Source: Candidatus Hydrogenisulfobacillus filiaventi | Lineage (GTDB): Bacteria; Bacillota; Sulfobacillia; Sulfobacillales; R501 | Assembly: GCA_902809825.1 (NCBI GenBank) | Contig: LR778114.1 | Span: 2,046,001 to 2,110,000 of the forward strand | DNA length: 64,000 bases | Direction: 5' to 3' | In this document: piece by piece, positions 12,599 through 42,155 of the stretch | Layout: every line of letters begins with the position of its first letter | Numbering within the stretch: the first letter of the stretch is position 1 | Notes under the pieces: model-generated | What the model saw: the letters and a program-made list of their open reading frames with translations, nothing else | What the model was told of the DNA's origin: nothing | Database searches by the model: none | Made by a program: the position numbers and the translations under genes

Positions 12599-13663
12599 AT
12601 GCGGCGTCGGCCATGGCAATGGGCCCTGGCGGGGGCACTGGTGCTCACCGGCGGTCTCCTCGCGACCCTTCCCCTCTGGCTGCCGCCGGCGGCGGCCGCC
12701 TACGGAACCTGGGCTGCAGCCGGACGGCCCGTCCGGCCTGCCCGTCACCCCGGCACTCCGCCGGCCGCTGCCGCGGCCGGCAGCCGGGTGGGGATCCTGC
12801 GCATCCCGGCCCTGGGCCTGACGGTTCCCGTCCTGCAGGGGGACGACGAGGCGGTGTTGTGGCAGGGGGCCGGGCACGTGCCCGCCTCGGCCTGGCCGGG
12901 GGAACCCGGCACCAGCGTGCTGGCCGCCCACAACGCCACCTTCTTCCGGCACCTGAACCGCCTGCGCCCGGGCCAGGCCGTGGAGGTCGACACCGGCTGG
13001 GGGCGGTTTATCTTCCGGGTGACCGGCCGGCGGGTGGTCCCTGCCGGTAGTCCCCTGTTCACGGGCGCCCGCCCGCGGCTGGTGCTGGAGGCCTGCTATC
13101 CGTTGAACGCCCTGTACCTCACGCCGGATCGCTACCTGGTGCTGGCGCGCCTCGTCCAGGCGGCGGCCCCCGGCGCCGCCCCGGCCCCGCCCCGGCCGCC
13201 GGCCTTCCATGCCGCCATCCCGCCCGCCCTGACGGGGTATCCGCTGGGGCTGGCGCACAACCCCCTCCCCATGGGGATCCTCACCTACCCCGCCGCCCCT
13301 GCAGGGGCGGTGACGGCCTTCACCCGCAACGGGGCCTCCCTGGTGCTGGCCCGCCAGGCCGTCCATCTATGGGAAGCCGTCCAGTACGCCGCCCGCTACC
13401 GCCGGGTGCACGCCTGGCAGGCCCTGATCGTACCGCCTGCGGCCCTGCCCCCCTTCTGGGGTGCGGCCGGCATCCGCGACCTGGGCCCCCTTAACCTGGC
13501 GGTCACGCTGTCGGCGGAGGGCCGGCCCCGGGGGCTGGTGATGGAGGACTCAATGGTGGAAGCTGCGGGAAGAATATGGGCGGTACGGATGACGGCCCGG
13601 GTGACGGCCGGCGGTACCGTCACCCTGACCGGTATCCGGGTGCAGCCGGACCCGGCCGGCTAA
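12599..13663 (+). CDS. Sortase (LPxTG-type transpeptidase) with C-terminal extension
   Basis: Membrane-anchored transpeptidase of 354 residues. ATG 12599 is eight bases after AAGGAGG. An N-terminal membrane anchor (WALAGALVLTGGLLATLPLWLP) is followed by the sortase core: IPALGLTVPVLQG, catalytic His111 in LAAHNATFFRHL, catalytic Cys166 in LVLEACYP and Arg178 in TPDRYLVLARL. Residues after about 190 form a Pro/Ala-rich linker and a roughly 150-residue domain not normal for sortases, with VTAFTRNGASLVLARQAVHLWEAV. Its substrate is probably the protein encoded just upstream, with the SPVTG signal. The stop codon overlaps tail-to-tail with the stop of the convergent repressor gene. Confidence 0.88.
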   Translation: MRRRPWQWALAGALVLTGGLLATLPLWLPPAAAAYGTWAAAGRPVRPARHPGTPPAAAAAGSRVGILRIPALGLTVPVLQGDDEAVLWQGAGHVPASAWPGEPGTSVLAAHNATFFRHLNRLRPGQAVEVDTGWGRFIFRVTGRRVVPAGSPLFTGARPRLVLEACYPLNALYLTPDRYLVLARLVQAAAPGAAPAPPRPPAFHAAIPPALTGYPLGLAHNPLPMGILTYPAAPAGAVTAFTRNGASLVLARQAVHLWEAVQYAARYRRVHAWQALIVPPAALPPFWGAAGIRDLGPLNLAVTLSAEGRPRGLVMEDSMVEAAGRIWAVRMTARVTAGGTVTLTGIRVQPDPAG

Positions 13664-13983
13664 AGCCGGCCGGCCTGATTCAAGCGGGAGAGGATGTTGC
13701 GGACCAGGCCCTCGTCCAGCGGCCCGATCTCCGCGTCCAGCCCCTCCACGATAGTGCAGGCGCTTAGCACCCGCGCCACTTGGGCCAGGGCACCGGACAT
13801 GGCCGAGATCTGGGTCAGAACCGCCTTGCAGTCCTCGCCACGCTCCAGCATGCCTTGCACCCCGCGGGCCTGGCCCTCGATGCGGCGCATACGGCGGATG
13901 AGGTCGGCACGGTCCCAGAACCGGGTGGTCAGGTTCTCGAGCTCGGGAGGAATGGGCGGAACCTCGTCGTCGGGGGTGGACAT
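13660..13983 (-). CDS. CsoR/CstR-family (DUF156) transcriptional repressor, atypical ligands
   Basis: A 107-residue all-helical repressor of the CsoR/RcnR/FrmR/CstR family: RRMRRIEGQARGVQGMLERGEDCKAVLTQISAMSGALAQVARVL. The first conserved cysteine (C52) is present. The second-helix ligands of Cu-CsoR (His then Cys) and the second cysteine of persulfide-sensing CstR are not in register; instead there is C76 in LSACT. Start ATG 13983 skips a longer possible N-terminus. It is divergent from a rhodanese gene whose promoter carries a CsoR-type palindrome, favouring sulfur-species sensing over metal sensing. That assignment is inference. Confidence 0.82.
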   Translation of the reverse strand: MSTPDDEVPPIPPELENLTTRFWDRADLIRRMRRIEGQARGVQGMLERGEDCKAVLTQISAMSGALAQVARVLSACTIVEGLDAEIGPLDEGLVRNILSRLNQAGRL

Positions 13984-14165
13984 ACAGCGTGCCTCCTCCA
14001 GGATTTCGGAAACGGCCCCCGGGTCCGGCATCCGCGGCATTGGCGGCGGATACCGCCCGTTTACCGGTTATTGTACCGGAGCCGGACGGGTTCGCCAAGG
14101 GCAGGTCTACCCGTCCCGGCAAGGTATGACCATTGGAAGACCGCCCGATAGGACCAGGGACCGCC

Positions 14166-14197
14166 TTGACAACATCTGGCCGGTAATCAATTATATA
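14166..14197 (+). promoter_or_regulatory. Promoter for the rhodanese gene
   Basis: A consensus -35 box TTGACA at 14166-14171 precedes an AT-rich -10 region: AATTAT with a 17-base spacer, or TATATA at 14192-14197 with 20. The surrounding gap (13984-14308) holds this promoter and the palindrome at 14195 and no credible gene. Confidence 0.6.
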
Positions 14198-14210
14198 CCC
14201 TGCTAGGTAT
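14195..14210. promoter_or_regulatory. CsoR-type operator palindrome ATACC-N6-GGTAT (site 1)
   Basis: ATACC CTGCTA GGTAT overlaps the -10 region of the rhodanese promoter, a position expected for a repressor. The same half-sites with the same 6-base spacing recur at 16772 and 26306. Known CsoR-family operators have an AT-flanked, GC-tract palindrome of this style; the divergent gene encodes such a repressor. Confidence 0.6.
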
Positions 14211-14308
14211 TTTTCCCGCGCGGCTCCCGGCCGCGGGTGCGGTGGGGCGCCGACCTGCCGGATCCGGCCCCGGATCCCGCCAATCCCACAAAACGCGAGG
14301 TGAACACG

Positions 14309-14932
14309 ATGGCCACAGAACTCAGCCCGCAGGTCGCGGTCCAGCAGGCCAACGAGGGGCAGCTCATCTTCCTGGACGTGCGCAGCGCGCGCGAATACGC
14401 CGGGGTCCGCCCCGCAGCCGCCTACAACTTCCCTTACCATGGCCGCAACTGGGGCGCCATGGTGGAGCGGGCCCTGCAGGGCCAGAAGCCGCCCATGGCC
14501 CTCTTCGCCGGCGACGCCGAGGTGGCGGAGGCCGCCCGGCGCGAGCTGGAAGGGGTGGGGCTGGAGGTGGTCTTCGTCTGGGACCGGGGAATTGAAGCCT
14601 GGAAGGAGGCCGGCCTCCCGACGGTCGAGGTGGCGGATGTCACCGTGGACGAACTGGCTCAGGACCTGGAGCGCTACGAAATCATCGACGTGCGGGAGCC
14701 CTACGAGCACCGCATGGGCGTCATTCCCGGGGCGCGCCTCATCCCCATGAACCAGCTGCCGGAGGTGATCGGCACCCTGGATCCGTCACGGCCCTACGCC
14801 ATCGTCTGTGCCTCCGGCAGCCGCAGCGCCTCGGTGGCGGCCTGGATGTCCCAGCAGGGCTTCAAGGTGGCCAATGTGGTCGGGGGAATGAATTCCTGGA
14901 TGCGGGCACGGCATCCTATCACTCGACCGTAG
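14309..14932 (+). CDS. Tandem rhodanese-domain sulfurtransferase
   Basis: A 207-residue cytoplasmic protein with two rhodanese modules. The first (about 1-105) has LIFLDVRSAREYAGVRPAAAYNFPY but lacks the active-site cysteine (LFAGDAEVAEA). The second (about 110-207) has EIIDVREPYEHRMGVIPGARLIP and the active-site loop CASGSRSASVAAW with the catalytic Cys, then VVGGMNSW. Members move sulfane sulfur from persulfides. ATG 14309 follows GAGGTGAACACG. Its promoter contains a CsoR-type palindrome and a CsoR/CstR-family regulator lies divergently, as in persulfide-detoxification loci. Confidence 0.85.
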   Translation: MATELSPQVAVQQANEGQLIFLDVRSAREYAGVRPAAAYNFPYHGRNWGAMVERALQGQKPPMALFAGDAEVAEAARRELEGVGLEVVFVWDRGIEAWKEAGLPTVEVADVTVDELAQDLERYEIIDVREPYEHRMGVIPGARLIPMNQLPEVIGTLDPSRPYAIVCASGSRSASVAAWMSQQGFKVANVVGGMNSWMRARHPITRP

Positions 14933-15012: not shown

Positions 15013-15675
15013 GTGGCGCGGTTGATTTCCGACGATGTCCGCTCCCAAATTGTGGAGTTCTTTAAGGGCCTGAAGGATCCGGTCACCATCGAGATCTACC
15101 GGGGACCGCAGGCGGAGCTGGCGGACGTGATGGTGCAGCTGGCCCAGGAACTGGCGGAGACCACCGACCGCCTGTCGGTCCGCGAAACCGACCAGGTGCC
15201 GGAATTGGAGCCGTTCCACGCCAAGCCCCTCACGGAAATTACGGGTCCCGTCAGCGTGCTCCTCGACCACCGGCAGCAGCCGACGGGGGTCCGTTACCTC
15301 GGCCTGCCCAGCGGGCACGAGTTCGGAGCCTTTCTCGAGGATATCCGGGACATCTCCAACCATACGGTGGGCCTGAGCCAGGGCGCCAAGGACAAACTGG
15401 CGACCTTGACCCGGCCGGTGCATATCCAGGTGTTTACCACCCCGACCTGACCCTACTGTCCCCGGGCGGTTCGCCTGGCACACCAGATGGCAATGGCCAG
15501 TCCGATGGTGATCGCGGATATGATTGACGCCCAGGAGTTCATGGACCTCTCCAACCAGTACGACGTGTACGGGGTTCCCAAGTCCGTCGTCAATGGGGAG
15601 CTGGACGTCACCGGAGCGGTTCCCGAGAACAACCTGCTGCAGCTCGTCATGCAGGCCGGCGGTCAGGGCGCCTGA
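15013..15675 (+). CDS. PDO/glutaredoxin-like oxidoreductase, in-frame TGA read as selenocysteine (U146-P-Y-C149)
   Basis: GTG 15013 (GAGGGGG upstream) opens a frame interrupted only by TGA at 15448-15450 and closed by TGA at 15673-15675: 220 residues, the normal size for a two-module protein disulfide oxidoreductase (PDO). The first module (1-105) lacks CxxC. The second begins RPVHIQVFTTPT, then TGA, then PYCPRAVRLAHQMA, i.e. the PDO active site CPYCP with TGA for the first Cys. Coding continues with the cis-Pro loop YDVYGVPKSVVNG and a C-terminal helix. A SECIS-like hairpin follows the TGA. TGA is an ordinary stop in many neighbouring genes, so selenocysteine insertion is the simplest reading. 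The alternative is a truncated 145-residue protein. Confidence 0.85.
15448..15482 (+). promoter_or_regulatory. Candidate bacterial SECIS element for the PDO TGA
   Basis: After the TGA, CCGGGC (15462-15467) pairs with GCCTGG (15473-15478) around the loop GGTTC, and TGT (15457-15459) pairs with ACA (15480-15482) below a small internal loop. The loop starts 17 nt after the TGA and its first two bases are G. This agrees with the bacterial SECIS rules known for fdhF-type genes: hairpin just downstream of the codon and a G at the loop start. Confidence 0.65.
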
Positions 15676-15809: not shown

Positions 15810-16409
15810 TTGATCCAGCCCATCTGGACGATTCCCGCCTCCAGCGCCTTCCTGCGCCAGCGCACCACCAAGGTGCACAGCATCAACCAGGAGGTGCGCC
15901 AGGTGGCGGCCGACCTGCGCGACACCTGGCCGACAGTCTCCGCCTACGGCATCGCTGCTCCGCAGATCGGATCCCGGCGGCGCATGTTCGCCTACCGGCA
16001 TGCCGACCGGGAGGACGAGCCGCCCATCATCCTGATCAACCCCAAGATCATCCGGGCGCGGGGGGAACTCAAGGACTACGACGGGTGCCTGTCGGTGCCC
16101 GGCATCTACGGGGAGACCCGCCGGGCGGCGGAGATCGAGGTGCTGGCCCTTAACGAGCGTGGCGAACCGGTGCGCCTGACTTTTGAGGGGTTTGACGCCC
16201 GGATCATCCAGCATGAGGTGGACCACCTGGAGGGGGTGCTCTTCATCGACCGCGTCGACGACCTCGACGAGTTCTACACCCTGGAGACGCAGGAAGCGGT
16301 GCCGGAAGGGGAGGAAGGCCGCTACCGGCGGGTCCCCCTCACCCCTGAACAGCGGGAGTTCATCGCCCGCGAACGGCGCCCCCTGCCGGCCTATGCCCTG
16401 ACGTGGTGA
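15810..16409 (+). CDS. def: Peptide deformylase
   Basis: Metal-dependent deformylase (199 residues) removing formyl groups from nascent proteins. All three family motifs are present: motif I YGIAAPQIG, motif II DGCLSVPG (metal-ligand Cys; Asp in place of the usual Glu before GCLS) and motif III IIQHEVDHLEGVLFIDR (HExxH). TTG 15810 is eight bases after GAAAGGGG. The C-terminus is longer than in the shortest enzymes (acidic stretch then PLTPEQREFIARERRP). It lies between two TGA-containing redox genes, with its own terminators on both sides. Confidence 0.95.
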   Translation: MIQPIWTIPASSAFLRQRTTKVHSINQEVRQVAADLRDTWPTVSAYGIAAPQIGSRRRMFAYRHADREDEPPIILINPKIIRARGELKDYDGCLSVPGIYGETRRAAEIEVLALNERGEPVRLTFEGFDARIIQHEVDHLEGVLFIDRVDDLDEFYTLETQEAVPEGEEGRYRRVPLTPEQREFIARERRPLPAYALTW

Positions 16410-16421
16410 GCGGACAGCAAA

Positions 16422-16444
16422 GGGGGCGGGATCTTCCCGCCCCC
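16422..16444. terminator. Bidirectional terminator hairpin between def and the glutaredoxin gene
   Basis: Perfect 10-bp stem GGGGGCGGGA (16422-16431) with TCCCGCCCCC (16435-16444), three-base loop. It sits between two convergent genes; a short T-tract follows only on the minus strand, so it best serves the glutaredoxin gene. Confidence 0.7.
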
Positions 16445-16475: not shown

Positions 16476-16712
16476 CTACTCGCGGATGCCCAGGGCCCGC
16501 GCCAGCTTCGGCCGATCGAAGCCCACCACCACACTGCTGTTCACCACGATGACCGGCACGCCGGTCTGGCCGGATTTGCGCTTCACGTCGGCCACTGCTT
16601 CCGGATGCTTGATGAGGTCGATCTCCTTGAAGGGGATCTTCCGCTCCTGCAGGTACCGCTTCGCGCTCCGGCAGTGGGGTCAGCTGGGGGTTGTGTAGAT
16701 GACGACCGCCAC
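16476..16712 (-). CDS. Glutaredoxin/NrdH-like protein, in-frame TGA read as selenocysteine (U11-P-H-C14)
   Basis: GTG at 16712, six bases after AAGGAGGG, begins VAVVIYTTPS, then TGA (16682-16680), then PHCRSAKRYLQERKIPFKEI. Reading through gives a 78-residue glutaredoxin with intact landmarks: the active-site loop TTPS-x-PHC, the cis-Pro segment SGQTGVPVIVVN and the terminal helix FDRPKLARALGI, ending TAG. The TGA replaces the first cysteine of CPHC, as in the PDO gene 1 kb away. A perfect TATAAT promoter and a palindromic operator lie upstream, so the gene is under active control. Stopping at TGA would leave ten residues, so a read-through product is strongly favoured. Confidence 0.87.
16647..16682 (-). 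promoter_or_regulatory. Candidate bacterial SECIS element for the glutaredoxin TGA
   Basis: On the minus strand after the TGA, CTGC (16674-16671) pairs with GCAG (16650-16647), GG with CC, and CGC (16665-16663) with GCG (16659-16657) around the loop GAA. The stem has a mismatch and an internal loop, so it is weaker than the PDO one, but its loop also starts exactly 17 nt after the TGA and begins with G. Confidence 0.45.
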
Positions 16713-16735
16713 GTACTTCCCTCCTTACACCGGCC

Positions 16736-16765
16736 ATTATAGCCGGCGCCGCTCCGAACCGGCAA
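16736..16765 (-). promoter_or_regulatory. Promoter of the seleno-glutaredoxin gene
   Basis: On the minus strand a perfect TATAAT (16741-16736) lies 23 bp before the GTG start; TTGCCG (16765-16760) is placed 18 bases upstream as the -35 box. The palindrome at 16770-16789 abuts the -35 box. Confidence 0.75.
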
Positions 16766-16769
16766 GCCT

Positions 16770-16789
16770 GGATACCCGGTTGGGTATCC
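16770..16789. promoter_or_regulatory. CsoR-type operator palindrome (site 2)
   Basis: GGATACCC-GGTT-GGGTATCC is a perfect 8-bp palindrome containing the ATACC-N6-GGTAT core seen at 14195 and 26306. It lies directly upstream of the -35 box of the seleno-glutaredoxin promoter. Confidence 0.65.
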
Positions 16790-23819: not shown

Positions 23820-25538
23820 TCAGAACAGGCGGTAGAGGCGGTTGAAGCGCACCTCGCGCGCCGGGGGCACGCGCGCCTCCACGCCGTCCACCGTCACCCG
23901 GTAGGTTTCGGGGTCGACCGCAATCCGCGGGGTGGCATCGTTCCATACCATGTCCCGCTTACTGAGCGTGCGGGTCCCACCGGCGGCCACCAGCGGCTTG
24001 CGCAGGCCCAGCCGTTCCCCCAGTCCCTCCTCCACCGCCGCCCGGCTGGTAAAGACGAGGCTGGTCCGGGCGGGGACTGCGCCGTAAGTCCCGAACATGG
24101 GGCGATACCAGTTGGGTTCCGGGGTGGGGATGGACGCGCCCGGGTCGCCGGAAAGCGCCCAGGCAATGAAGCCACCCTTAATGATGAGCTTGGGCCGCAC
24201 CGCGAAGAACGGAATCTCCCACACCACCAGGTCGGCCCACCGGCCGGGGGCGATGCTGCCCACCCAGTCGGCAATCCCGAAGGTAATAGCCGGATTGATG
24301 GTGAGCTTGGCCAGATACCGCAGCACCCGCCGGTTATCGGAGCCCGGCCGTTCCTCCGGCAGCGGCCCCCGTTCCCGCTTCATCTTGTCCGCAGTCTGGA
24401 AGAGGCGCTGCCAGTTCTCGCCTACCCGGCCCATGGCCTGGGAATCGCTGGAGTACATCGACAGCACCCCCAGGTCATGCAGGACGTCCTCGGCGGCAAT
24501 GGTTTCCGGCCGGATCCGGCTCTCGGCGAAGGCCAGGTCCTCGGCCAGATGGGGATCCAGGTGATGGCAGACCATGAGCATGTCCAGGTGCTCATCGATG
24601 GTGTTGACCCCATACGGCCGGGTAGGGTTGGTGGAGGCCGGGAGCACATTGGGCTCACCCGCCAGGCGCAGGATATCGGGGGCATGGCCGCCCCCGGCCC
24701 CCTCGGTGTGATAGGTGTGGATCACCCGGCCGTTGATGGCGCGCCGGGTATCCTCCACAAAGCCGGCTTCGTTGAGGGTGTCGGTATGGATGGTCACCTG
24801 CACATCCAGGCGATCCGCCACCGCCAGGCAGCGATCGATCACAGCCGGGGTGGCCCCCCAATCCTCGTGGATCTTGAGGCCCAGGGCCCCCGCCCGGATC
24901 TGCTCCTCCAGCGGCTCTTCCCGGGCGCTGTTGCCCTTACCCAAAAAGCCCACATTGACGGGGAAGGCCTCCGCCGCTTCCAGCATGCGGGCCAGGTTCC
25001 ACGCTCCCGGGGTGCAGGTGGTGGCCAGGGTGCCATGCGCCGGCCCGGTGCCGCCCCCGATCATGGTGGTAATGCCAGCCGACAGGGCAGTCCATACCTG
25101 CGCGGGGTCAATCCAGTGAATATGGGCGTCGATGCCGCCAGGGGTGACAATACAGTGCTCCCCGGCGATGACCTCCGTCCCCGGGCCGATCACCAGCCGG
25201 GGGTCTACCCCGTCCATGACGTCGGGGTTGCCCGCCTTGCCCACTGCCGCAATGCGGCCATCCCGGATGCCGATGTCGGCCTTGACCACCCCCAGCAGGG
25301 GGTCCAGCACCACCGCGTTGGTGATAACCAGGTCCGGCGTCCCCGCCGCGCGGGGCACGGCGGCCTGGCCCATCCCGTCGCGGATGCTCTTGCCCCCGCC
25401 GAAGACGGCCTCGTCCCCGGGGACGGTCAGGTCCCGCTCCACCTCCAGCACCAGGTCGCTGTCGGCCAGCCGGAAGCGGTCGCCGGCGGTGGGCCCATAG
25501 AGGGCTGCATAGCGGCGGCGCTCAAGACGCATGGCCAT
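23820..25538 (-). CDS. ureC: Urease subunit alpha
   Basis: Catalytic subunit (572 residues) hydrolysing urea to ammonia and carbamate at a di-nickel site. Nickel ligands and active-site motifs: [11 protein letters not shown], the carbamylated Lys in [45 protein letters not shown], flap [30 protein letters not shown] and [16 protein letters not shown] with the Ni-ligand Asp. Length and motifs are those of functional bacterial enzymes. It overlaps ureB by 17 bp. Confidence 0.98.
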
Positions 25539-31217: not shown

Positions 31218-32621
31218 ATGCCCGCCTCCCCGTCGGCGCGCCCCTTCCCCTTGCGGTTAACCCTGCCCGACCTCTCCAGCCTCTCCATCTCGAGCGTGGC
31301 CCCCCTCTTCAGCCTGGCGGCGGCGGGGCAGATGCTGGTCCGCCTCACCGGTCCCCGCGTGCTGTGGGCCGTGCTGGCGGTGGCGGTCCCCTTCGTGCTC
31401 AGCAGCACCATCTTCCGCCTGCTGAACCGGCACTTCCCCAACGCCGGCGCCTCCTACCACTGGTCGCGCCGGGTGCTGGGCCCGACAGCCTCCCGCTTCC
31501 AGTCCTGGATTCTGCTGATGGCGTACTTCTGGTCCCTACCCCCCATCGTCATCCCCGCCGCCACCCAGACCCTCGCCCTGGCCGGCCTGCCCCGTCCCGC
31601 CCCGCCCGCAGTGGTGCTGGCCGGGGCCGGATGGGTGGCCTTCGCCACCGGGGTGCTGCTGCTGGGCAGCCGGGTCACCGCCCGCGTCACCCAGGCCTTC
31701 CTGGTCCTGGAGGTCGCCGCGGTGGCCGTGCTGGCCGCCGTCGGCCTCGCCCGCTGGCACCCCGTGGCCGCCCCCGCCGGCCCCCTGCCCCTGCGCCCCT
31801 TCGCCGTCGCCATGGTGGTGGCCGCCACCATCGTCGACGGCTGGGAGATCGACAGCTACGCCGCCGAGGAGGCGCGCCGGCCCCGCACCACCCCCGGCAC
31901 CGGCGGGATGGCCGGCGCCCTGCTGGTGCTGGCCTACTACGGTCTGGCCTGGACCGTGCTGCTGCACACGGTACCGGTGCCGGTGCTGGCCGCGCACAGC
32001 GACGTGCTCACCACCTGGGCAGCCGCTGAGCTGCCGGGGGCGGGCCGCTGGGCGCTGCTGCCCATCCTGGCCTCCACCGCCGGGTCGCTGTGGCTGACCA
32101 CCTTCATCCTGTCGCGGGCGCTCTACGCCATGGGCCGCGACCGGCTGCTGCCGGCACCCTTGACCCGCCTTAACCGCTTCCATGCCCCCGTCTGGGCGAT
32201 CGCCCTTCCCGCGGCGGGAGCCCTCGCGGTGGTGGCCGTCAACCTGGCCTGGCCCTCGGTCACCGCCCTCTTCAATCTGGTATTGAGTTCAGCGGGGTTC
32301 TTCCTGGTGCTGGAGTTCCTGTTCGACAGCGTGACCGCGGCCGTCTTCCTGGTCCGGCAGCATCCCGCCAGCTGGCCGCATGCGCGCGACCGTCACCGTC
32401 ACCGCGGGCGGCTGGCGGCCGCCATCCTCACTGCCGCCTGGCTGCTGGCCCTGGCCCTGCTCTTCCTGCGATACGGCGCTGCCGTGCTGGGGCAGGGTAT
32501 CGACGCCGTCCTGGGCGTCATGCTGCTCCTGGGCGCGGGGTTTACGGTCCTCGACCGCCGCCGCCACCCCGGGCCCGAACCTCTCTTCATCTTCGATCCC
32601 GATGCGGTGGCCGGCCCCTGA
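31218..32621 (+). CDS. APC-superfamily permease, copy A of an inverted pair
   Basis: A 467-residue permease: LRLTLPDLSSLSISSVAPLFSLAAAGQMLV (TM1), NAGASYHWSRRVLGPTASRFQSW (TM2-3 motif with the conserved Gly-Ala-Ser-Tyr), IVDGWEIDSYAAEEARRP (TM6 acidic region). Codons from about residue 20 to 397 are almost identical at DNA level to copy B (33571-34992, opposite strand). The last 70 residues (from RLAAAILTAAWLL to FDPDAVAGP) are different. ATG 31218 follows AAAGGAGG. Substrate unknown. Confidence 0.85.
   Translation: MPASPSARPFPLRLTLPDLSSLSISSVAPLFSLAAAGQMLVRLTGPRVLWAVLAVAVPFVLSSTIFRLLNRHFPNAGASYHWSRRVLGPTASRFQSWILLMAYFWSLPPIVIPAATQTLALAGLPRPAPPAVVLAGAGWVAFATGVLLLGSRVTARVTQAFLVLEVAAVAVLAAVGLARWHPVAAPAGPLPLRPFAVAMVVAATIVDGWEIDSYAAEEARRPRTTPGTGGMAGALLVLAYYGLAWTVLLHTVPVPVLAAHSDVLTTWAAAELPGAGRWALLPILASTAGSLWLTTFILSRALYAMGRDRLLPAPLTRLNRFHAPVWAIALPAAGALAVVAVNLAWPSVTALFNLVLSSAGFFLVLEFLFDSVTAAVFLVRQHPASWPHARDRHRHRGRLAAAILTAAWLLALALLFLRYGAAVLGQGIDAVLGVMLLLGAGFTVLDRRRHPGPEPLFIFDPDAVAGP
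31276..32409 (+). repeat. 1,134-bp inverted repeat, arm A
   Basis: Begins within the permease N-terminal codons at CCAGCCTCTCC and ends at the CCGCGGGC motif near codon 398. It pairs with 33798-34931 in reverse orientation without indels. Only a few substitutions were found by eye, for example near 31561, 31768 and 32021, so identity is above 99 percent. Confidence 0.93.
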
Positions 32622-33570: not shown

Positions 33571-34992
33571 TTATAACGGCGGAACCGGCTCTGGCCCGGG
33601 CGCTTCCGGCTCGAAGATGAAACAGGCGCCGGCAGAGCGCTGGCGGCGCGCGGCCAGGATGCTGAACAACGTCCCGCCGCCCAGCAGGACCGCAAGAACC
33701 GCATCCAGCCCAGGTCCCACCGCCGCGCCCCCGTACCGGAGGAAGAGCCCTGCAATGCCGGCCAGCCACAGGCTGGTCACCACCGAAACCACCAGCAGCC
33801 CGCGGTGACGGTGACGGTCGCGCGCATGCGGCCAGCTGGCGGGATGCTGCCGGACCAGGAAGACGGCCGCGGTCACGCTGTCGAACAGGAACTCCAGCAC
33901 CAGGAAGAACCCCGCTGAACTCAATACCAGATTGAAGAGGGCGGTGACCGAGGGCCAGGCCAGGTTGACGGCCACCACCGCGAGGGCTCCCGCCGCGGGA
34001 AGGGCGATCGCCCAGACGGGGGCATGGAAGCGGTTAAGGCGGGTCAAGGGTGCCGGCAGCAGCCGGTCGCGGCCCATGGCGTAGAGCGCCCGCGACAGGA
34101 TGAAGGTGGTCAGCCACAGCGACCCGGCGGTGGAGGCCAGGATGGGCAGCAGCGCCCAGCGGCCCGCCCCCGGCAGCTCAGCGGCCGCCCAGGTGGTGAG
34201 CACGTCGCTGTGCGCGGCCAGCACCGGCACCGGTACCGTGTGCAGCAGCACGGTCCAGGCCAGACCGTAGTAGGCCAGCACCAGCAGGGCGCCGGCCATC
34301 CCGCCGGTGCCGGGGGTGGTGCGGGGCCGGCGCGCCTCCTCGGCGGCGTAGCTGTCGATCTCCCAGCCGTCGACGATGGTGGCGGCCACCACCATGGCGA
34401 CGGCGAAGGGGCGCAGGGGCAGGGGGCCGGCGGGGGCGACCACGGGGTGCCAGCGGGCGAGGCCGACGGCGGCCAGCACGGCCACCGCGGCGACCTCCAG
34501 GACCAGGAAGGCCTGGGTGACGCGGGCGGTGACCCGGCTGCCCAGCAGCAGCACCCCGGTGGCGAAGGCCACCCATCCGGCCCCGGCCAGCACCACTGCG
34601 GGCGGGGCGGGACGGGGCAGGCCGGCCAGGGCGAGGGTCTGGGTAGCGGCGGGGATGACGATGGGGGGTAGGGACCAGAAGTACGCCATCAGCAGAATCC
34701 AGGACTGGAAGCGGGAGGCTGTCGGGCCCAGCACCCGGCGCGACCAGTGGTAGGAGGCGCCGGCGTTGGGGAAGTGCCGGTTCAGCAGGCGGAAGATGGT
34801 GCTGCTGAGCACGAAGGGGACCGCCACCGCCAGCACGGCCCACAGCACGCGGGGACCGGTGAGGCGGACCAGCATCTGCCCCGCCGCCGCCAGGCTGAAG
34901 AGGGGGGCCACGCTCGAGATGGAGAGGCTGGAAAGGTCAGGCAGGGTGAGCTGCAGCGGAAACCGGCTGCGGATCACGGGGTCCGGGTTCAT
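33571..34992 (-). CDS. APC-superfamily permease, copy B of an inverted pair
   Basis: A 473-residue permease matching copy A except at its first about 20 residues (MNPDPVIRSRFPLQLTL) and its last about 75 (LLVVSVVTSLWLAGIAGLFLRYGGAAVGPGLDAV... to EPVPPL). One amino acid change inside the shared part (HPVV for HPVA) was seen. ATG 34992 follows AGGAGG. The combination of near-identical cores with divergent ends points to recent gene conversion or inversion between arms, not to a simple recent duplication of the whole gene. Confidence 0.85.
   Translation of the reverse strand: MNPDPVIRSRFPLQLTLPDLSSLSISSVAPLFSLAAAGQMLVRLTGPRVLWAVLAVAVPFVLSSTIFRLLNRHFPNAGASYHWSRRVLGPTASRFQSWILLMAYFWSLPPIVIPAATQTLALAGLPRPAPPAVVLAGAGWVAFATGVLLLGSRVTARVTQAFLVLEVAAVAVLAAVGLARWHPVVAPAGPLPLRPFAVAMVVAATIVDGWEIDSYAAEEARRPRTTPGTGGMAGALLVLAYYGLAWTVLLHTVPVPVLAAHSDVLTTWAAAELPGAGRWALLPILASTAGSLWLTTFILSRALYAMGRDRLLPAPLTRLNRFHAPVWAIALPAAGALAVVAVNLAWPSVTALFNLVLSSAGFFLVLEFLFDSVTAAVFLVRQHPASWPHARDRHRHRGLLVVSVVTSLWLAGIAGLFLRYGGAAVGPGLDAVLAVLLGGGTLFSILAARRQRSAGACFIFEPEAPGPEPVPPL
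33798..34931 (-). repeat. 1,134-bp inverted repeat, arm B
   Basis: Reverse-orientation partner of 31276-32409, same length. The two arms are separated by 1,388 bp that hold both permease tails and the methyltransferase gene. No transposase or terminal repeats are seen, so this is not an insertion sequence. Confidence 0.93.
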
Positions 34993-41060: not shown

Positions 41061-42155
41061 TCAGCAGATGCGGGGGAGCGGGTCGCCGACCAGCATGTCC
41101 AGCACCCGGGTCCCCCCGATGTCGGTGCGCAGAAAGACCATCCCCGCCGGCTCCGCCGCCACCTCGCCGATGATGGCGGCGTCCCGCCCCAGGGGATGCG
41201 CCCGCAGCACCTCCAACGCCCGCGCGGCCGCTTCCGGGGCCACCACCGCCAGCAGCTTCCCTTCGTTGGCGATGGTAAGGGGATCCAGACCCAGCAGCTC
41301 ACAGACCCCGGTCACAGCCGGGTGGACGGGAATAGCGCGTTCCTCCAGGGCAATGGCCACCTCGGAGGCCAGGGCGATCTCGTTGAGGGTGGTGGCCACC
41401 CCGCCCCGCGTGGGGTCCTTCAGGCAGTGCACCGCTGGACCCACAGCCTCCAGCAGGGCGCGGACCAGGGTGTGCAGCGGGGCGGTGTCGCTGGTGACCG
41501 ACGCCTCCACCCCGACCTCCCCCCGCGCCAGCATCACCGCCACCCCATGGTTGCCGACCTGGCCGCTCACCAGCACCCGGTCGCCGGGGCGGGCCAAGTG
41601 CTGGCCCACCGGCGCCGGGGCTATCACCCGCCCTATCCCGGCGGTAGTGATGTACACCCCGTCCCCATGGCCTTGCGGCACTACCTTGGTGTCCCCCGTC
41701 ACCACCGGCACCCCCGCCGCGCGGGCCGCCGCCGCCATGGAGTCCACCAGGGCCTGCAGGTCGGCCACCGGATACCCCTCCTCCAGGATGAAGGCGGCCG
41801 ACAGCCCCAACGGCCAGGCTCCCGCCATGGCCAGGTCATTGATGGTGCCATGCACGGCCAGACAGCCGATATCCCCGCCCGGGAACACCAGCGGGCTGAC
41901 CACATAGCTGTCGGTGGTAAAGGCCAGGGTCCCGGCGGCCTCCAGGAGCCCCGCATCATCCATCCGGTCGAGGGCCGGATTGCTAAAGGAGGGGGCGAAC
42001 ACCCCTTCCACCAGGTTGTGGGTCGCCTTGCCGCCGCTGCCGTGGCTCATGGTCACATGGGTATCGCGCAAGGCAAAACGCCGGCGGCGGATCTCGCGCG
42101 CCCGCGCAATCTTCTCCAGCACCGCCTCCGGTATGGTCCCCGTCTCGTGGGCCAT
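41061..42155 (-). CDS. hypE: Carbamoyl dehydratase HypE
   Basis: ATP-dependent dehydratase (364 residues, PurM/AIR synthetase fold) that forms the cyanide ligands of the NiFe centre with HypF. Motifs: MSHGSGGKATHNLV near the N-terminus, DSYVVSPLVFPGGDIG, VTGDTKVVPQGHGDGVYITTAGIG, LKDPTRGGVATTLNEIA and the essential terminal cysteine (PLPRIC). hypF is not in this operon or window. Confidence 0.97.
   Translation of the reverse strand: MAHETGTIPEAVLEKIARAREIRRRRFALRDTHVTMSHGSGGKATHNLVEGVFAPSFSNPALDRMDDAGLLEAAGTLAFTTDSYVVSPLVFPGGDIGCLAVHGTINDLAMAGAWPLGLSAAFILEEGYPVADLQALVDSMAAAARAAGVPVVTGDTKVVPQGHGDGVYITTAGIGRVIAPAPVGQHLARPGDRVLVSGQVGNHGVAVMLARGEVGVEASVTSDTAPLHTLVRALLEAVGPAVHCLKDPTRGGVATTLNEIALASEVAIALEERAIPVHPAVTGVCELLGLDPLTIANEGKLLAVVAPEAAARALEVLRAHPLGRDAAIIGEVAAEPAGMVFLRTDIGGTRVLDMLVGDPLPRIC

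Follow-up and report, generated by a model that had tools for sequence, protein, structure and literature searches.

Selenoproteins of the two kinds described here have precedents. A review of the prokaryotic selenoproteome lists a selenoprotein glutaredoxin with a UxxC active site, exemplified by the Grx of Clostridium sp. OhILAs (C. oremlandii), and the protein disulfide oxidoreductase (PDO) family TIGR02187 has likewise been reported as a selenoprotein family (PMC13188914). Selenocysteine (Sec) use in the Sulfobacillus group is also already known, since formate dehydrogenase (PMC4378227) and PrxU (PMC7409299) have been reported; a glutaredoxin is mentioned in neither of these two papers. 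This kind of glutaredoxin must itself be regarded as known, because NCBI provides a (seleno)protein model for it (Uxx-star, NF041212). The novelty of the Sec glutaredoxin is overstated in the earlier note on this DNA, as (seleno)protein family models exist for its group and for that of the PDO alike.

The window analysed here, a stretch of 64,000 nucleotides from the genome of ‘Ca. Hydrogenisulfobacillus filiaventi’, contains a minus-strand gene which almost certainly encodes a Sec-containing thiol oxidoreductase of glutaredoxin type, with an in-frame UGA read as Sec (Table 1). From its GTG start, preceded at a distance of 7 nt by AGGAGG, the frame translates as VAVVIYTTPS, the TGA and then PHCRSAKRYLQERKIPFKEIDLIKHPEAVADVKRKSGQTGVPVIVVNSSVVVGFDRPKLARALGIRE up to the terminator TAG (16478-16476). 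This TGA is the sole internal stop, and standard decoding (table 11) yields ten residues only. A complete 78-residue glutaredoxin interrupted by a single TGA, as claimed in the earlier note, was borne out by the translation and by the match to Glutaredoxin PF00462 (2.8e-19; score 69.5 vs gathering cut-off 22.9, with the TGA read as a residue). With U submitted as C, the protein also exceeded the curated cut-off of NF041212 (71.9 vs 66). The highest-scoring NCBIfam model was that of the YruB family (TIGR02196), of whose curated cut-off the protein falls just short (86.0 vs 88.55); it also remained below the cut-offs of the more specific NCBIfam models UXX-star 1, 2 and 3 and of that for NrdH (TIGR02194). 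With respect to reduction by glutathione, its C-terminal VGFDRPKL looks closer to the SGFRPD motif of NrdH. It shares with Uxx-star proteins the small size, the glutaredoxin fold and a first catalytic position held by Sec or Cys, but differs from them in retaining the second Cys (UPHC). With the Grx of Clostridium sp. OhILAs, to which it is likened by description, it shares PF00462 and the UxxC arrangement, whereas the gene studied here occurs in a member of the Sulfobacillus-related Bacillota and has a PDO, a rhodanese and a CsoR-family regulator as neighbours.

Scanning of the whole window returned 73 in-frame TGA positions adjacent to Cys or Gly. Among the 45 listed, judged by eye from context and third-position GC, only those at 15448 (in the PDO gene) and 16682 appeared real. 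Another candidate, at 41063, was rejected as it resembles a normal stop codon separating two genes of hydrogenase maturation.

Table 1 Features of the glutaredoxin-PDO locus (positions in the window)
Feature	Position	Strand	Basis
CsoR/CstR-family repressor (PF02583)	13660..14040	-	Pfam
ATACCCTGCTAGGTAT, operator-like palindrome with one mismatch, 5' of rhodanese-PDO	14195..14210	.	motif scan
Rhodanese-domain protein, directly 5' of the PDO gene	14237..14932	+	rhodanese domain
Protein disulfide oxidoreductase (PDO), TPT-U-PYC, terminator TGA 15673-15675	15013..15675	+	TIGR02187
In-frame TGA, predicted Sec codon of PDO	15448..15450	+	sequence, orthologues
SECIS-like hairpin CCGGGC-GGTTC-GCCTGG, 12-28 nt 3' of the PDO UGA	15462..15478	+	alignment
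Peptide deformylase, separates the PDO and glutaredoxin genes in this genome, ends in UGA	15810..16409	+	profile search
Terminator-like hairpin 3' of the glutaredoxin gene	16422..16444	-	10-bp GC stem, weak T tail
Predicted Sec glutaredoxin with UPHC active site; 78 codons, starting with GTG and followed by TAG	16476..16712	-	ORF reading, Pfam/NCBIfam, orthologues
TGCCGG, 7-12 nt past the UGA; hardly any synonymous variation among Sec forms	16668..16673	-	codon counts
In-frame TGA (codon 11), predicted to encode Sec in place of the catalytic Cys	16680..16682	-	orthologue alignment
Shine-Dalgarno sequence AGGAGG	16720..16725	-	sequence
Sigma-70 promoter-like site TTGCCG-18-TATAAT	16736..16765	-	motif scan
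Perfect palindrome GGATACCC-N4-GGGTATCC directly upstream of -35; probable CsoR/CstR-type operator	16770..16789	.	sequence

Close orthologues of the glutaredoxin were collected from 36 genomes of the order, its own genome included. Exactly one in-frame TGA interrupts 29 of the 36, and the remaining seven have no stop. Of the interrupted forms, 23 were read at sequence level, all of them with the TGA at the identical codon, and all eight stop-free forms read (seven orthologues and a paralogue from the same genome) have Cys there, encoded by TGC or TGT. The comparison of CPHC with UPHC forms among relatives, suggested in the earlier note, thus returned TGA or a Cys codon at one and the same place and no stops elsewhere; the in-frame TGA aligns with Cys in homologues and coding is kept on both sides of it. 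On a tree built without the Sec/Cys residue, the distribution of the two forms requires three changes. Elsewhere in the phylum, the nearest homologues (47-53% identical) are free of stops, and a TGA is present in a few less similar sequences (40-45% identical). The region 3' of the UGA is under purifying selection, with a median dN/dS of 0.09 and a maximum of 0.34 over 103 pairs.

These data bear on two trivial readings of the stop. The gene might be a pseudogene, or its active-site Cys codon might have been turned into a stop by a random mutation, as the ten-residue product under table 11 would suggest, and a Cys paralogue 64% identical to it could render this copy dispensable; yet the same TGA, accompanied by no other stop, recurs in orthologues from many genera, dN/dS downstream of it is low, and nothing but Cys was otherwise observed at this position, which makes decay extremely improbable. 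Even less probable is a sequencing or assembly error turning TGC or TGT into TGA: a single base would suffice and nothing else speaks in its favour, whereas 29 separately assembled genomes show one in-frame TGA. We therefore discard both, because TGA or Cys is conserved in the relatives and dN/dS is 0.09. The paralogue itself (CRWC; genome C1:2135032-2135265) is convergent with a 398-aa FAD-type oxidoreductase-like ORF, which by eye is sulfide:quinone oxidoreductase-like.

The genome, a single contig of 2,570,337 bp, possesses the complete set of genes for Sec decoding, for which a search had been proposed in the earlier note. Profile searches identified selA (571 bits vs cut-off 267.9), a full-length selB of 627 aa (342.9 bits vs 242.25), selD (351.6 bits), which has its own in-frame TGA in the context SG-U-GCK, and a tRNA-Sec with the anticodon UCA (74.8 bits vs 47), assigned as tRNA-SeC by ARAGORN as well; the runner-up tRNA-Sec match was an ordinary tRNA-Cys(GCA). 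The organism thus belongs to the Sec-decoding bacteria as defined by SelA, SelB, SelD and tRNA-Sec(UCA). Together these components would decode the in-frame UGA as Sec and so create the UPHC active site. In this genome, selB overlaps at its start the end of a thioredoxin reductase gene, trxB (L001:724-3632; genome C1 ~1372828). A conserved trxB-selB operon was considered and dismissed: no thioredoxin-reductase motif was found beside selB in 30 relatives, and the overlap is therefore particular to this genome.

Across the order, SelB was detected in 38 of 42 genomes. The negative ones are G040 (63% complete), G023 (96%), and G010 and G011 (96-97%). The latter two form one genus, the only one at least 96% complete that is devoid of SelB, and their glutaredoxin and PDO genes alike carry TGC or TGT at the site. 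G023, a 96%-complete draft with both TGA genes and no SelB match, is an unexplained exception; its SelB is perhaps missing through an assembly gap. Other Cys-form glutaredoxins reside in SelB-bearing genomes, where the PDO keeps its TGA.

Some bacteria are known to possess tRNAs that read UGA and are charged with Cys, and the homologues carry Cys at the Sec site, so that a suppressor tRNA or a changed code inserting Cys or Trp deserves consideration. It is nevertheless highly unlikely: the UCA tRNA is a tRNA-SeC and is accompanied by selA, selB and selD, the second-best tRNA-Sec match is the ordinary tRNA-Cys(GCA), loss of SelB goes along with loss of the TGA, and UGA also serves as terminator. 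UGA is not generally reassigned in this genome, because the PDO gene uses it both as Sec codon and as terminator and the deformylase gene ends in it. No more credible is that the first ten codons are a regulatory leader whose UGA acts as a selenium-sensing conditional stop, the full protein being made only with selenium. Every Sec gene depends on selenium to some degree and the Cys paralogue could be a stand-in, but no downstream cistron is there to be controlled and the frame itself runs on to a complete glutaredoxin. Recoding of the TGA as Sec, the proposal of the earlier note, is supported by the presence of the machinery, the retention of TGA across the order and Cys as the sole alternative. 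Sec insertion itself we infer from these machinery genes, the position and conservation of the codon and the selection downstream of it, which were observed directly.

For the glutaredoxin gene, no conserved hairpin that could act as the signal for Sec insertion (SECIS) was found after the UGA. RNAalifold, applied to the full region after the UGA and to seven sub-windows in 23 orthologues, found two pairs only, and the gene's own sequence after the UGA forms no more stable a fold than its shuffled versions (z 0.03). A bulged structure of two helices, sketched manually from individual folds, was dropped because its paired fraction was 77.3% vs 77.9% in shuffles. Conservation is seen at the level of sequence. 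Among the Sec forms, the Cys codon after the UGA is TGC in 23 of 23 and the following Arg codon CGG in 22 of 23, whereas other invariant Arg positions use four or five codons; constraint from the SECIS or insertion signal is the probable cause of this synonymous freeze. A second stretch of low synonymous variation covers codons 39-42 after the UGA (TGVP, ~16554-16565), with GGC in 21/23, GTG in 21/23 and CCG in 20/23; it is located beyond the usual distance of a SECIS from the UGA.

The partner gene encodes a PDO matching TIGR02187 (PDO_seleno_TRX) with a score of 213.5 against the curated cut-off of 185. It has the UxxC of that family and shows no difference of note from it besides the linkage to the Sec glutaredoxin. 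Its SECIS-like hairpin, CC(A/G)GGC-loop-GCCTGG with GT in the loop, is kept in all aligned PDO sequences but one; 98% of cells are paired across 17 sequences, versus 15-51% in slid versions. Counting covariations gives no further test, because most pairs never vary. The PDO gene lies within 6 kb of the glutaredoxin gene in 25 of 36 genomes, often adjacent and convergent, and we found no description of this conserved linkage in the order in the literature searched. The two TGA genes, about 1 kb apart, had been taken in the earlier note for independent cases; being a conserved linked pair, they are not. Its argument that two chance mutations at the same active-site residue are improbable stands despite the linkage, which is what one would expect of two selenoproteins that act jointly.

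The expression signals ascribed to the glutaredoxin gene in the earlier note were all located: the TATAAT promoter, the good ribosome site, a terminator, in which the GC stem is present but the T tail weak, and a perfect palindrome (GGATACCC-GGTT-GGGTATCC) whose role as operator is probable. The promoter-like site has 10 of 12 matches, against 0.1 expected in shuffles.

The neighbourhood suggests a link to reactive sulfur. The CsoR/CstR-family protein has, by eye, two Cys in a CstR-like pattern; Cys residues presumably occupy the positions of the first Cys and of the His of CsoR, as in CstR. The motif ATACCC-N4-GGGTAT is found twice in the genome, at the glutaredoxin gene and before another rhodanese. 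This second site (genome C1:1924441) lies immediately before a gene for a single-domain rhodanese, in whose vicinity there are ORFs resembling DoxX and DsrE. In the 42 genomes of the order there are 45 sites, compared with three in a reversed control; 15 of the 45 are no more than 6.5 kb away from one of the listed genes for glutaredoxin or PDO, and one CsoR-type gene and ORFs reading as MBL-fold or DUF302 proteins are among their neighbours. One- and two-mismatch copies, such as that 5' of rhodanese-PDO, taken alone are within chance expectation in this window. In Thermus, sulfur oxidation is reported to be controlled by a CsoR-family regulator with a TAC/GTA-type palindrome, and rhodaneses are stated to be frequent targets of repression by CstR proteins (PMC10318464). 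Judging from the neighbourhood and the operator-like motif, both TGA genes probably belong to a reactive-sulfur locus or regulon. Together with the linked Sec-PDO, the Sec glutaredoxin would then probably serve in thiol or persulfide reduction, controlled by a reactive-sulfur sensor of the CsoR/CstR family, and reduction of the glutaredoxin by thioredoxin reductase or the PDO chain seems likelier than by glutathione. The more specific scheme, in which the pair forms a regulon reducing persulfides or polysulfides, with a CstR-like sensor, ATACCC-N4-GGGTAT operators and a non-hairpin Sec signal in the glutaredoxin gene, is tentative and on balance doubtful.

Elsewhere in the window, an inverted repeat with arms of 1179 nt (31240-32418 and 33789-34967; 99% alike, 1370 nt apart) overlaps amino acid permease ORFs in each arm. 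We also identified a Guanidine-I riboswitch (RF00442; 27636-27734, 81.6 bits) and an Rfam match to 5_ureB_sRNA (25088-25383), which at 43.7 vs a gathering threshold of 40 may reflect protein-coding similarity.

An annotation that treats TGA as stop only would lose or truncate the glutaredoxin enzyme. The order offers a natural experiment, in which the loss of SelB in one genus accompanies a Sec-to-Cys swap in both partner genes. The conserved pairing of the two genes, which lie here near a rhodanese and a CstR-like repressor and in relatives near MBL-fold and DUF302 genes, points to an involvement of selenium in the metabolism of reactive sulfur; if the regulon proves true, selenium chemistry would serve sulfane-sulfur handling in the Sulfobacillus-related Bacillota.
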